This document shows positions 11,697-39,168 of a stretch of 44,159 bases of DNA, piece by piece. Source of the DNA: a bacterium (lineage in GTDB: Bacteria; Patescibacteriota; Patescibacteriia; UBA9934); NCBI GenBank assembly GCA_027592325.1, contig JAQCKO010000009.1:1-44159 (forward strand), written 5' to 3'. A model generated the notes under the pieces. The model saw nothing but the letters and a program-made list of their open reading frames with translations, was not told the DNA's origin and did no database searches. Position 1 is the stretch's first letter, and each line of letters starts with the position of its first letter. A program made the translations under genes and the position numbers.

Positions 11697-12599
11697 TTAG
11701 CGAAATTTATGTCGTTGTTCTGGCGGTGGAGCTGATTCACGGCGTTCACTCTCGAGCTCCGCAGCGTATTCTGCGCGTAATTCGCGGTGCACTTCACGCC
11801 GCGCTTCAAGTGCGGCTTCTTCGCGCTCCCGAAATGCCTGTCTACGTTCTTTATACACGCTCAGGAGAACATCATCGGTAAGACCGATCTTCCTGTACCA
11901 ATCTGTATATCGTTTCAATTTGACGTCAGCATCTGCATAATTTACAAATGCCTCTCCAGTTTCGATTGCACGTATTGATCGCTCAATAAGATCGATGTAT
12001 TCGCTTGCAGTAAATTGCCTTGCTGTTACTTCATCATATTCAAACTGATATTCAAGATGACCAAAATACTGCTCAGATGGAATGATCGGGACCTCGATTG
12101 TATACGCGAGGTCACCTTCATTGATAGCAACATCGATAATATCTTCAACAGGTAAGTCTCCGTAGAGTTTACGCAATTCCCTGCTATGGCCGTGATTGCT
12201 ATGTGCAGCCTCATGGATAGCAATATTTATCGTCCATTCTTCCATTGCATTCGCGTTCAGTCCCATCGTATCCGATGAAAAAGGTCGTTCATGATGTTCA
12301 CCAATTGTTCCATCGTAAAAATCAGACTTCGGATAATATACGTAAATCCGCCCGTTTTGATGCATGTTATTTAGTTCAGAAAGTGCAACTTCAAAGGCGT
12401 CTCGCATTTCCGGTTTATTTGCCCCAATGCGTGAAAAATCAGCCGCATCAATAAGGGCTCGTGTCATTTCACTTGAAATATTTGTTTCCCTAACAAGAGC
12501 ATCTATCGCAGCTTGCTGCTCTGCATTTGGTTCAGCAAAATCAGCGCCAGAGCAGGCGCAAGAGAGTAGGGCGGCTGCAGTAAGGTGTTTATGTCCCAT
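11697..12599 (-). CDS. Putative lipoprotein metallopeptidase (HExxH)
   Basis: The 300-residue product has a short N-terminal hydrophobic segment with a lipobox-like LLSC (Cys14), suggesting lipid attachment. HEAAH at 129-133 in an amphipathic helix (INIAIHEAAHSNHGHSREL) matches the zincin active site; a third ligand could be a Glu further on (INEGD or YEVTAR region), not certain. The C-terminus from about residue 245 is a charged coiled coil rich in Arg and Glu. I do not recognise a specific peptidase family. It heads the rpiB-rpe operon and has a TATAAT box 8 bases before the ATG. Confidence 0.7.
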   Translation of the reverse strand: MGHKHLTAAALLSCACSGADFAEPNAEQQAAIDALVRETNISSEMTRALIDAADFSRIGANKPEMRDAFEVALSELNNMHQNGRIYVYYPKSDFYDGTIGEHHERPFSSDTMGLNANAMEEWTINIAIHEAAHSNHGHSRELRKLYGDLPVEDIIDVAINEGDLAYTIEVPIIPSEQYFGHLEYQFEYDEVTARQFTASEYIDLIERSIRAIETGEAFVNYADADVKLKRYTDWYRKIGLTDDVLLSVYKERRQAFREREEAALEARREVHRELRAEYAAELESERRESAPPPEQRHKFR

Positions 12600-12629: not shown

Positions 12630-12658
12630 TTGACGATTTTCATGATTTTCGCTACGCT
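12630..12658 (+). promoter_or_regulatory. Promoter of the ileS leader
   Basis: TTGACG (12630-12635) is separated by 17 bases from TACGCT (12653-12658). Transcription should start near 12665, four or so bases before the leader-peptide ATG at 12669. The -10 hexamer is only fair. Confidence 0.5.
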
Positions 12659-12668
12659 GAGGGTAGAT

Positions 12669-12716
12669 ATGAATACTACAGCAGTGATTATCGGAGCTGA
12701 GATTATTCGCCGTTAG
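12669..12716 (+). CDS. ileS leader peptide (two Ile-Ile pairs)
   Basis: A 15-codon frame encodes MNTTAVIIGAEIIRR and ends with TAG. Four of fifteen residues are isoleucine, as two tandem pairs (ATT ATC at 12687-12692 and ATT ATT at 12702-12707). It sits between a candidate promoter and an antiterminator/terminator pair upstream of an isoleucyl-tRNA synthetase gene, so the Ile codons are likely sensors of charged tRNA-Ile. Like many genes here it starts about 10 bases after the -10 box without a Shine-Dalgarno sequence. The stop codon overlaps the first base of the antiterminator arm, so a ribosome at the stop would mask that arm. Confidence 0.65.
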   Translation: MNTTAVIIGAEIIRR

Positions 12717-12772
12717 GTGGGCTCACTTCATGCTGTTTGAAGAAGAAAGCCCCGCCACGCGGGGAAATTTTT
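12716..12772 (+). terminator. Attenuator: mutually exclusive antiterminator and terminator of ileS
   Basis: Terminator: CCCCGC (12750-12755) pairs with GCGGGG (12759-12764) around a three-base loop, followed by AAATTTTT. Antiterminator: GGTGGGCT (12716-12723) pairs with AGCCC(C)GCC (12748-12756) with one bulged C, using the whole left arm of the terminator. A third option pairs GAGCT (12694-12698) with GGCTC (12720-12724). A ribosome stalled at the Ile codons would leave 12716-12723 free and favour readthrough; one finishing at the stop would cover it and favour termination. Confidence 0.65.
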
Positions 12773-12778
12773 ATACCT

Positions 12779-15655
12779 ATGTCACAAAAAAAACACGCAG
12801 ATCAAGAGAAAGATGTCATTGATTATTGGGAAAAACATGAAATTTTTCAAAAATCGATCACAAATCGCCCAGAAGGGGAGCTTTATAATTTTTATGATGG
12901 CCCTCCGTTTGCCACTGGAACACCGCACTACGGGCATATTGTGGCGAGTGTCCTGAAAGATGTCGTGCCGCGTTTTTGGACAATGAAAGGAAAGCGTGTA
13001 GAGCGTAAATGGGGATGGGATTGCCATGGTCTTCCGATTGAGGCAATCGTTGAGAAAGAATTTGACCTAAAAACAAAGGCGGATATTGAAAAAATGGGTG
13101 TTGCCGAATTTAATGGTGCGTGTGACGCAAAGGTGATGGCGTATGCTGACGAATGGAAAAAAGTTATTCGTCGCCTTGGCCGTTGGGTCGACATGGAGAA
13201 TGATTACAAAACCAAAGACATCAATTACATGGAGTCGGTTTGGTGGGTGTTTAAGCAGCTCTTTGACAAGGGACTCATTTACGAAGGCTTTAAGAGCATG
13301 CATATTTCACCGGCACTCGAAACGGTTGTTTCAAATTTTGAGGTGAATCTTGGAGGCTATCACGATATTACAGACCTCACGGTGACAGCGAAATTTAAAC
13401 TGACGTCGGGAGTGTACGAAGGGACGTCTATCCTTGCTTGGACGACAACTCCATGGACGCTGCCTGGGAATGTCCTTCTTGCAGTCGGCACGGAGATCAC
13501 CTATAGCTTAGTTGAAGTAGATGGTGAACAATGTATTGTCGCGAGCAAGCGCGTTAAGGATGTTTTTGAAGGGAAAGCGTATAAAGAAGTGAAAACGGTC
13601 AAGGCGGCCGAGCTACTTGGTTCTTGTTACGAGCCACTTTTTCCGTATTTTAAGGATCATGCAAATGCCTTCCGTGTTGTTGCTGGAGACTTTGTAACCA
13701 CGGAAGACGGAACAGGAATTGTGCATATTGCGCCAGGTTTTGGTGAAAATGACATGCATCTTGGGCGGGAAGAAGAGGTTGAGCCGATTTTGCATGTTGA
13801 AATGAGCGGGCGCCTTGTGCCAGAACTTGAAGATGCTCTCGCAGAAGAGGGCTATGATGTTAAAGGTTGGGCGGTGAAGAATAAAGAAGACCACATGCAC
13901 GTCGATGTAGAGATGGTGAAATGGCTTGCGCATCATGGAAAGCTCTTCGCAAAAAAGAAAATCGTCCACAGCTACCCAGTATGCTGGCGCACTGATGTCC
14001 CGCTTATTAATTATGCGGCATCGTCTTGGTTTGTGAAGGTGACCGATCTTCGTGACCGTCTTGTTGCAACGAATAAAGAAATTAATTGGGTGCCTGGGCA
14101 TATGAAAGAGGGCCGCTTTGGAAAGTGGCTTGAAGATGCCCGTGACTGGGCCGTGAGTCGTTCACGTTATTGGGGAACGCCACTTCCTATTTGGAAAAGT
14201 GAGGATGGTGACGTACTCTGTATCGGTTCAGTTGAGGAGCTTGAAGCATTGACCGGTCAAACTATTGTCGATCTTCACAAGCACATTGTAGATGAACTTG
14301 TCATTGAAAAAGATGGGAAAACGTATCACCGCATTCCTGATGTCCTTGATTGCTGGTTTGAATCAGGTTCGATGCCGTATGCACAGGGACATTATCCCTT
14401 TGAAGGGGAACAGCAATTTGATGGAGGGTTCCCCGCAGAATTCATTGCGGAAGGGCAAGATCAAACCCGCGGATGGTTCTATACTCTCCATGTGCTAGCG
14501 AACGCACTTTTTGACATGCCGGCGTACAAAAATGTTGTCGTGAATGGGATTGTGCTCGCAGAAGACGGGAAGAAAATGAGTAAGCGCCTCAAGAATTATC
14601 CTGATCCTATGGAGGTAATGGAACGGTATGGATCAGATGCTGTGCGACATTATTTGATGGCATCTCCTGTTGTGCGTGCTGAGAATTTACGCTTTTCAGA
14701 GAAAGATGTGCATGAAGTAGAAAAGAAATTTATTTCTATTATGCGCAATGTGCAGACCTTTTACGCGCTGTATAAAGATACAGAAGATGGTCGCGCGCCG
14801 GCGCTTCATCATCCGCTTGATCGATGGATTATTGCGCGTCTGAATGAAACACTCAAGGAAGAAACAGAAGCGCTTGAAACATACGATTTGCAGCGCGCTG
14901 CGCGAAGTTTGCAACCTTTTGTGACGGATCTTTCTACTTGGTATGTGCGCCGTTCGCGTGATCGTCTGAAGGTTGAAGGAGAAGATCAAAAAGAAGCACT
15001 AGCAACCTTACGTGAGGTTTTCCAAACGTTCTCGCGGATGATTGCGCCATTTATGCCATTCCTTGCTGAAATTCTTTACCAAGAGGTGAACGGCGATTTT
15101 GCGGGTGAGCGGAAACAACTCTCTGTACACCTTGAGGATTGGCCAGAGCCAGGAGAAATCGATGTGGCAATTTTGGACGAAATGGGAGAGGCGCGTGCCC
15201 TTGTTTCGCGTATGCTTGACGCACGTGAAGAGGCTGGCGTGCCGATTAAACAGCCACTTGCGATGTGTACGCTCACGGTTCCCGCAGGTGTGATTGGAGA
15301 CGAACTCCTCGCGGTTATTCTCGATGAAGTAAATGTGAAATCGGCAGAAGTTAAAAAGGGTGAGATTGCTGCAGAACTCGACTTTCTTGTTACACCTGAA
15401 CTTCGCCGCGAAGGATTGCTTAGGGACGTCGTTCGGCGTGTCAATGCCTTGAGGAAAGAAGCTGGGAAAACAATTGATGATCGTATTCATTTGCGCATTT
15501 ATTCAGAACACCCTGATGTACAGCGCATGTTTGAGGATCATGTTGAAGCACTAAAAGCGGCAACACTCGCGGATGGCGTTGAATTCACGGAAGAAACGGG
15601 AGAGGTATCCGCAGAGATGCGTACAAAGGAAATCGACATTCGTGTAAGCTTCTAA
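12779..15655 (+). CDS. ileS: Isoleucyl-tRNA synthetase, eukaryote-like type
   Basis: The 958-residue class I synthetase charges tRNA-Ile. The HIGH motif is PHYGHI (49-54) within YDGPPFATGTPHYGHI, and KMSKR is at 599-603. The editing domain lies between, with the WTTTPWTLPGN motif near residue 220. The signature around HIGH and WGWDCHGLPIE is that of the eukaryote/archaea-like (type 2) enzymes rather than the E. coli type (DGPPYANGxIHIGH). The start is taken at MSQKKHAD, 7 bases after the attenuator T-run; an upstream in-frame ATG lies inside the attenuator. It is followed one base later by the DHH-like gene. Confidence 0.96.
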   Translation: MSQKKHADQEKDVIDYWEKHEIFQKSITNRPEGELYNFYDGPPFATGTPHYGHIVASVLKDVVPRFWTMKGKRVERKWGWDCHGLPIEAIVEKEFDLKTKADIEKMGVAEFNGACDAKVMAYADEWKKVIRRLGRWVDMENDYKTKDINYMESVWWVFKQLFDKGLIYEGFKSMHISPALETVVSNFEVNLGGYHDITDLTVTAKFKLTSGVYEGTSILAWTTTPWTLPGNVLLAVGTEITYSLVEVDGEQCIVASKRVKDVFEGKAYKEVKTVKAAELLGSCYEPLFPYFKDHANAFRVVAGDFVTTEDGTGIVHIAPGFGENDMHLGREEEVEPILHVEMSGRLVPELEDALAEEGYDVKGWAVKNKEDHMHVDVEMVKWLAHHGKLFAKKKIVHSYPVCWRTDVPLINYAASSWFVKVTDLRDRLVATNKEINWVPGHMKEGRFGKWLEDARDWAVSRSRYWGTPLPIWKSEDGDVLCIGSVEELEALTGQTIVDLHKHIVDELVIEKDGKTYHRIPDVLDCWFESGSMPYAQGHYPFEGEQQFDGGFPAEFIAEGQDQTRGWFYTLHVLANALFDMPAYKNVVVNGIVLAEDGKKMSKRLKNYPDPMEVMERYGSDAVRHYLMASPVVRAENLRFSEKDVHEVEKKFISIMRNVQTFYALYKDTEDGRAPALHHPLDRWIIARLNETLKEETEALETYDLQRAARSLQPFVTDLSTWYVRRSRDRLKVEGEDQKEALATLREVFQTFSRMIAPFMPFLAEILYQEVNGDFAGERKQLSVHLEDWPEPGEIDVAILDEMGEARALVSRMLDAREEAGVPIKQPLAMCTLTVPAGVIGDELLAVILDEVNVKSAEVKKGEIAAELDFLVTPELRREGLLRDVVRRVNALRKEAGKTIDDRIHLRIYSEHPDVQRMFEDHVEALKAATLADGVEFTEETGEVSAEMRTKEIDIRVSF

Positions 15656-39091: not shown

Positions 39092-39168
39092 GGGTCTGTA
39101 GCTCAGTTGGTCAGAGCGCGGAGCTTATACCTCCGTGGTCGATGGTTCGAGTCCATCCAGACCCACCA
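39092..39168 (+). tRNA. tRNA-Ile(UAU), CCA encoded
   Basis: The cloverleaf folds cleanly: acceptor GGGTCTG/CAGACCC, D stem GCTC/GAGC, anticodon stem CGGAG/CTCCG with loop CTTATAC, T stem GATGG/CCATC with TTCGAGT, then ACCA. The anticodon is TAT, which reads AUA. Most bacteria use a CAU anticodon with lysidine for this codon, so this is unusual. Confidence 0.93.

Follow-up and report, generated by a model that had tools for sequence, protein, structure and literature searches.

Isoleucyl-tRNA synthetase is encoded by ileS, and the 179 bases that separate ileS from a divergent gene for a 300-amino-acid protein (11697 to 12599, minus strand) raise the question of whether a short isoleucine-rich leader peptide controls transcription of the synthetase gene in a member of the Patescibacteria. 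The window, by which we mean the whole stretch of DNA that was analyzed, is 44,159 nucleotides long, and the order to which its genome belongs includes Candidatus Uhrbacteria. Attenuation of the trp/phe type, in which a translating ribosome decides between alternative RNA structures and thereby the transcription of ileS, is the best available interpretation of the region, and we give it a probability of roughly 85%. The features on which this reading depends are collected in Table 1.

Table 1. Features upstream of ileS in the window (locus L001) and leader peptides of four related loci
Feature	Position	Strand	Remarks
Promoter-like site	12630-12658	+	-35 TTGACG (12630-12635), 17-nt spacer, -10 TACGCT (12653-12658); consensus match only
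Predicted transcription start	~12665	+	from the promoter-like site
Leader peptide frame, MNTTAVIIGAEIIRR	12669-12716	+	15 codons, ATG at 12669 to TAG at 12714-12716
First Ile pair, ATT ATC	12687-12692	+	in leader frame
Second Ile pair, ATT ATT	12702-12707	+	two codons ahead of stop
Possible 1:2 hairpin (anti-antiterminator), CGCC-GTTA-GGTG	12708-12719	+	putative; -8.0 kcal/mol with flanking pairs
Antiterminator 5′ arm, GGTGGGCT	12716-12723	+	first base is the G of the leader stop codon
Antiterminator 3′ arm, AG(C)CCCGCC	12748-12756	+	C12750 bulged; overlaps 5′ half of terminator
Intrinsic terminator, CCCCGC-CAC-GCGGGG + AAATTTTT	12750-12772	+	stem 12750-12764, 6-bp GC; T-run to 12772
ileS, isoleucyl-tRNA synthetase, 958 aa	12779-15655	+	TIGR00392 at 865.9 bits (cut-off, 621.4)
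L007 (G012) leader, MKSQIIINQIIITP	before divergent ileS		Ile-rich, terminator downstream
L010 (G007) leader, MKSSQIIIETIIRL	before divergent ileS		Ile-rich, terminator downstream
L032 (G054) leader, MKSMNAIIAQIIIAKP	before divergent ileS		Ile-rich, terminator downstream
L033 (G035) leader, MDGIIIPQICFA	before divergent ileS		Ile-rich, terminator downstream

An earlier note on this DNA had described an Ile-rich frame with two Ile pairs, a stop codon overlapping an antiterminator arm and a GC-rich terminator with a T-run close to ileS, and all of these elements are present where it had placed them. The leader frame encodes the product M N T T A V I I G A E I I R R, in which Ile accounts for 4 of the 15 codons. 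The pairing that the note had drawn between the two antiterminator arms was the same as that in the predicted fold of the region, and the fold of positions 12630 to 12790 had a z score of −2.6, with 0 of 200 shuffles equally stable. Computed folding gave the terminator stem alone −11.6 kcal/mol; its T-run consists of just five T residues, follows AAA and ends 7 bases ahead of the ileS start codon. Elsewhere in the window, a tRNA-Ile with anticodon TAT is found at 39092 to 39168 on the plus strand. Such a tRNA is unusual in bacteria, in which ATA codons normally fall to a tRNA whose CAT anticodon carries a modification. The 300-amino-acid protein had no NCBIfam match, and its gene sits between rpiB and ileS, which are directly divergent in many relatives.

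The suggestion that the leader frame is itself leaderless agrees with the promoter-like site, the −10-like hexamer of which ends 10 nt before the leader ATG. A similar geometry was found by consensus matching ahead of the L010 leader (TTGACT-N17-TAAGCT, then 9 nt to the ATG), and with the hexamers so close to the start codon the 5′ untranslated part of either transcript would be a few bases long. The same rule identified no promoter-like site for the L007 and L033 leaders. Just ahead of ileS itself, promoter-like geometry was found at 32 of 65 loci in the order versus 88 of 1,300 shifted controls, and leaderless mRNAs may thus be common in the order, as judged from consensus matches. In many relatives (L005 to L053 and L164 to L182), sites resembling TTGATT-N17-CATACT lie 0 to 45 nt upstream of ileS and end 6 to 10 nt from its ATG. 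Within the window, no promoter-like site fits between the terminator and ileS; since the upstream gene is divergent, ileS transcripts should cross the terminator. At L007, the interval from terminator to ileS does contain another promoter-like site (TTGATC followed by TAATAT or AATATT, 8 to 9 nt from the ATG), which could give rise to ileS transcripts that bypass the attenuator.

To compare the locus with others, we collected ileS upstream regions from 69 genomes of the order, these being the ones in which the gene was found, and added those of about 120 loci of the class and of another 80 loci. The earlier note had tied its proposal to recurrence of the frame and its terminator upstream of ileS in relatives. 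Both were recovered in four relatives, the IleS proteins of which are 44 to 64% identical to that of the window, and the element was absent from 64 of the 69 genomes; the arrangement is thus patchy and not a conserved feature of ileS. Where the element occurs, the stem of the terminator begins 33, 41, 38, 44 and 36 nt past the leader stop (L001, L007, L010, L032 and L033, respectively), a T-run follows the hairpin at all five loci, and an arm that pairs upstream overlaps the terminator in the four relatives. Three of the leader peptides begin with MKS. In every leader but that of L033, the last run of Ile codons lies two to three codons ahead of the stop; in L033, the second run is degenerate (I-C-F) and the arms are weak. 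The RNA arms have no obvious sequence similarity among the five loci apart from the alignable pair L032 and L033, and therefore the layout is kept and the sequence is not. Between terminator and ileS, about 10 to 90 nt before the gene, L032 carries a palindromic repeat (TCATTGCGAG ... GCAATGACA), and a similar repeat is present at L053.

The frame could have arisen by chance, with the hairpin being an ordinary terminator or a bidirectional one that serves the neighboring gene. Absence of the frame from most relatives fits this explanation, as do the hairpin being readable on either strand and the existence of other short frames with multiple Ile codons, many of which lack a terminator. A fixed rule was applied that called for an ATG frame of 8 to 30 codons with at least four Ile codons, at least 20% Ile, one Ile pair and a terminator no more than 90 nt past the stop. 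Examples were already known when the rule was fixed, and its counts are therefore descriptive: it matched 5 of 229 ileS regions, all five in the order of the window. Control strand amounting to about 731 kb, from the window and other loci, gave two matches, both unrelated, and dinucleotide shuffles satisfied the rule in 0 to 2 of 4,000 cases per locus (2 of 4,000 for the 200 nt upstream in the window). Five ileS loci that have frame, spacing and terminator in common argue against coincidence, and the neighboring gene, which starts at 12599 and is transcribed away from the hairpin, needs no terminator there. We consider a chance frame highly unlikely.

Matches to the rule were also specific to the cognate amino acid. 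When the 229 ileS regions were searched by this rule with each of the 20 amino acids in turn, the threshold being lowered to three codons for rare residues, Ile gave five loci, Ser two and Arg two, and only Ile gave reproducible matches before ileS. In the five genomes, other synthetase genes (Val, Leu, Met, PF00587 class II, the PheS family and the Trp/Tyr family) were not preceded by a run of cognate codons with a terminator. No convincing leader was seen at the 120 scanned loci of class ABY1 outside the order, and none was found at the 80 further ileS loci or before ileS at L041, L043 and L046. One candidate, MHLLLCIIIHVNPFKI at L370, has its terminator 14 nt past the stop and was not accepted; candidates at L070 and L179 were inspected and likewise not accepted as leaders. 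We conclude that an Ile-rich frame followed by a terminator recurs before ileS in five genomes of one order.

Another way in which ileS could respond to isoleucine is a T-box leader that binds tRNA or, alternatively, an attenuator bound by protein, as in autoregulation by IleS. T-box-like elements do occur before ileS elsewhere in the class, where the motif was found at 18 of 120 loci outside the order and at 0 of 69 inside it. Those elements (RGRTGGTACCG plus a downstream terminator) lie approximately 50 to 250 nt before ileS at L188, L189, L184, L190, L196, L241, L245, L259, L271 and other ABY1 loci outside the order. Some of them match RF00230, the best at 31 bits against a curated threshold of 93, and a score so far under the threshold makes them T-box-like, not proven T-boxes, that would stay unannotated. 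In the window itself a T-box was rejected as contradicted by the sequence: the RGRTGGTACCG sequence is present neither there nor, by motif, in the 69 genomes of the order, positions 12630 to 12780 gave no Rfam match, and the predicted transcript ahead of the arms, at about 50 nt, is too short for a stem I. Control of this ileS by tRNA binding or by a bound protein is extremely improbable.

How the element came to be distributed was considered on a tree of the synthetases, where its presence in 5 of the 69 genomes of the order requires three changes. The window and L010 grouped together (88/93), and L007 fell apart from them, beside L009, the locus of a congeneric genome (G003) that is without a leader. 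The synthetases of L032 and L033 are distant and group with a Magasanikbacteria sequence (L107), the ileS gene of which has a T-box-like motif upstream. Either a single origin followed by several losses or several origins are possible. It is an even call whether ileS came under leader-peptide attenuation in the Uhrbacteria order, perhaps repeatedly, where related lineages use T-boxes, and did so on near-leaderless mRNAs, such that the ribosome that does the sensing would load at the very 5′ end and dispense with a Shine-Dalgarno step, a leaderless form of attenuation.

If the leader is an attenuator, the position of the ribosome should decide whether the terminator forms. The RNA left free was folded with ViennaRNA on the assumption that a ribosome masks 12 nt, counted from the start of its A-site codon. 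A ribosome at the stop codon gave predicted terminator probabilities of 0.997, 0.999, 0.976, 0.935 and 0.997 for L001, L007, L010, L032 and L033, respectively. Placed at the first Ile codon, it gave 0.001, 0.004, 0.004, 0.961 and 0.300, and shuffled stop-to-terminator spacers reached values that were as low in 6, 0, 64, 22 and 7 of 500 cases. A stall at the first Ile codon would thus abolish the terminator at three loci and do so in part at L033, and the terminator would be kept at equilibrium at L032. Antiterminator and terminator were, in the same way, clearly exclusive by computed folding in the window, L007 and L010, partially so at L033, and at L032 in the nascent transcript only, in which the antiterminator would need to fold ahead of the terminator while transcription is under way. 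When the stall was placed at the second, last Ile pair of the window, the terminator mostly stayed (0.59 to 0.94), and therefore the first Ile pair would be the main sensor. The putative 1:2 hairpin, which would favor termination on an untranslated leader, was predicted in the window, L010 and L032, weak in L007 and absent in L033. Together with the four relatives of like layout, the computed switching lends support to the trp/ilv-type attenuation that had been proposed from the window.

The leader might act otherwise, with stalling or reinitiation setting the translation of ileS, or with termination reporting translation in general and no Ile-specific switch. A Shine-Dalgarno sequence is not apparent ahead of ileS, the terminator stem ends 15 nt from the ileS ATG and could hinder initiation, and short distances have been proposed to allow reinitiation at leader genes (PMC4833913). 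The leader stop is, however, 62 nt from the ileS start, which makes reinitiation less likely; a T-run stands behind every one of the five hairpins, and the Ile specificity implies sensing of Ile-tRNA. We therefore give little weight to these other modes of action and return to transcription attenuation.

From the elements and their recurrence we infer promoter activity, leader translation, stalling, termination and the sense of regulation, as follows. Transcription would begin a few bases ahead of the leader ATG, and a ribosome would load on the near-leaderless end and trail RNA polymerase. When Ile-tRNA is well charged, the ribosome would reach the stop codon and mask the 5′ arm, such that the terminator would form and transcription would end near 12772. 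When charging falls short, whether for want of isoleucine or of IleS, the ribosome would stall at the Ile codons, the 5′ arm would pair with the 3′ arm, no terminator would form and ileS would be transcribed. The arrangement suggests that the cell makes more IleS when charged isoleucine tRNA is scarce.

Were this correct, control by coupled transcription and translation would extend to the Patescibacteria. These bacteria are small and uncultured, probably depend on a host, and little is known of their regulation. Such cells probably import isoleucine, which would make the synthetase a plausible point at which to respond to shortage. One bacterial class would moreover sense one signal for one gene in two ways, by T-box-like elements and by a leader peptide, and the question is raised of whether leaderless mRNAs can support attenuation. 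In the open-access literature we found no report of leader-peptide attenuation for ileS or in Patescibacteria, nor one on leaderless mRNAs in Patescibacteria. Leader-peptide attenuation of synthetase genes is already known as a kind, and it is the gene and the phylum that are without an earlier report in that literature.

The established attenuator of pheST (pheM) in gammaproteobacteria has a Phe-rich leader and alternative hairpins and controls the cognate synthetase. The ileS locus resembles it in that the leader is enriched in the amino acid of the synthetase that it would control and is followed by alternative hairpins, and differs in amino acid, gene and phylum, in having no sequence relation, and in a leader that is nearly leaderless. 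In the trp attenuator of Escherichia coli, regulatory codons lie two to three codons before the stop, arm 2 comes right after the stop, and the 2:3 pairing is the antiterminator and the 3:4 pairing the terminator. The geometry of codons, arm 2 and both pairings is the same here, whereas trp attenuation controls biosynthesis through Trp codons and its 1:2 hairpin is established, that of ileS being weakly supported. The pheST attenuator is named in PMC1262725, which also predicts leader-peptide attenuators for Streptomyces trpS and leuS and assigns T-boxes, not leader peptides, to ileS. Like the ileS element, the Streptomyces candidates have a synthetase gene preceded by a classical leader peptide, an antiterminator and a terminator, but they belong to Actinobacteria and concern Trp or Leu (PMC1262725). 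His leader peptides are predicted for hisS paralogues in bacilli, and the same gene switches there between T-box and leader peptide (PMC2965389); a leader peptide replacing a T-box on a synthetase gene is the likeness, and histidine, Firmicutes and duplicated genes are the differences. Finally, the T-box leaders of ileS in Firmicutes and Actinobacteria, and the T-box-like ones in ABY1, serve the same gene and the same signal, uncharged tRNA-Ile, but detect the tRNA itself through RNA pairing and have no translated leader.
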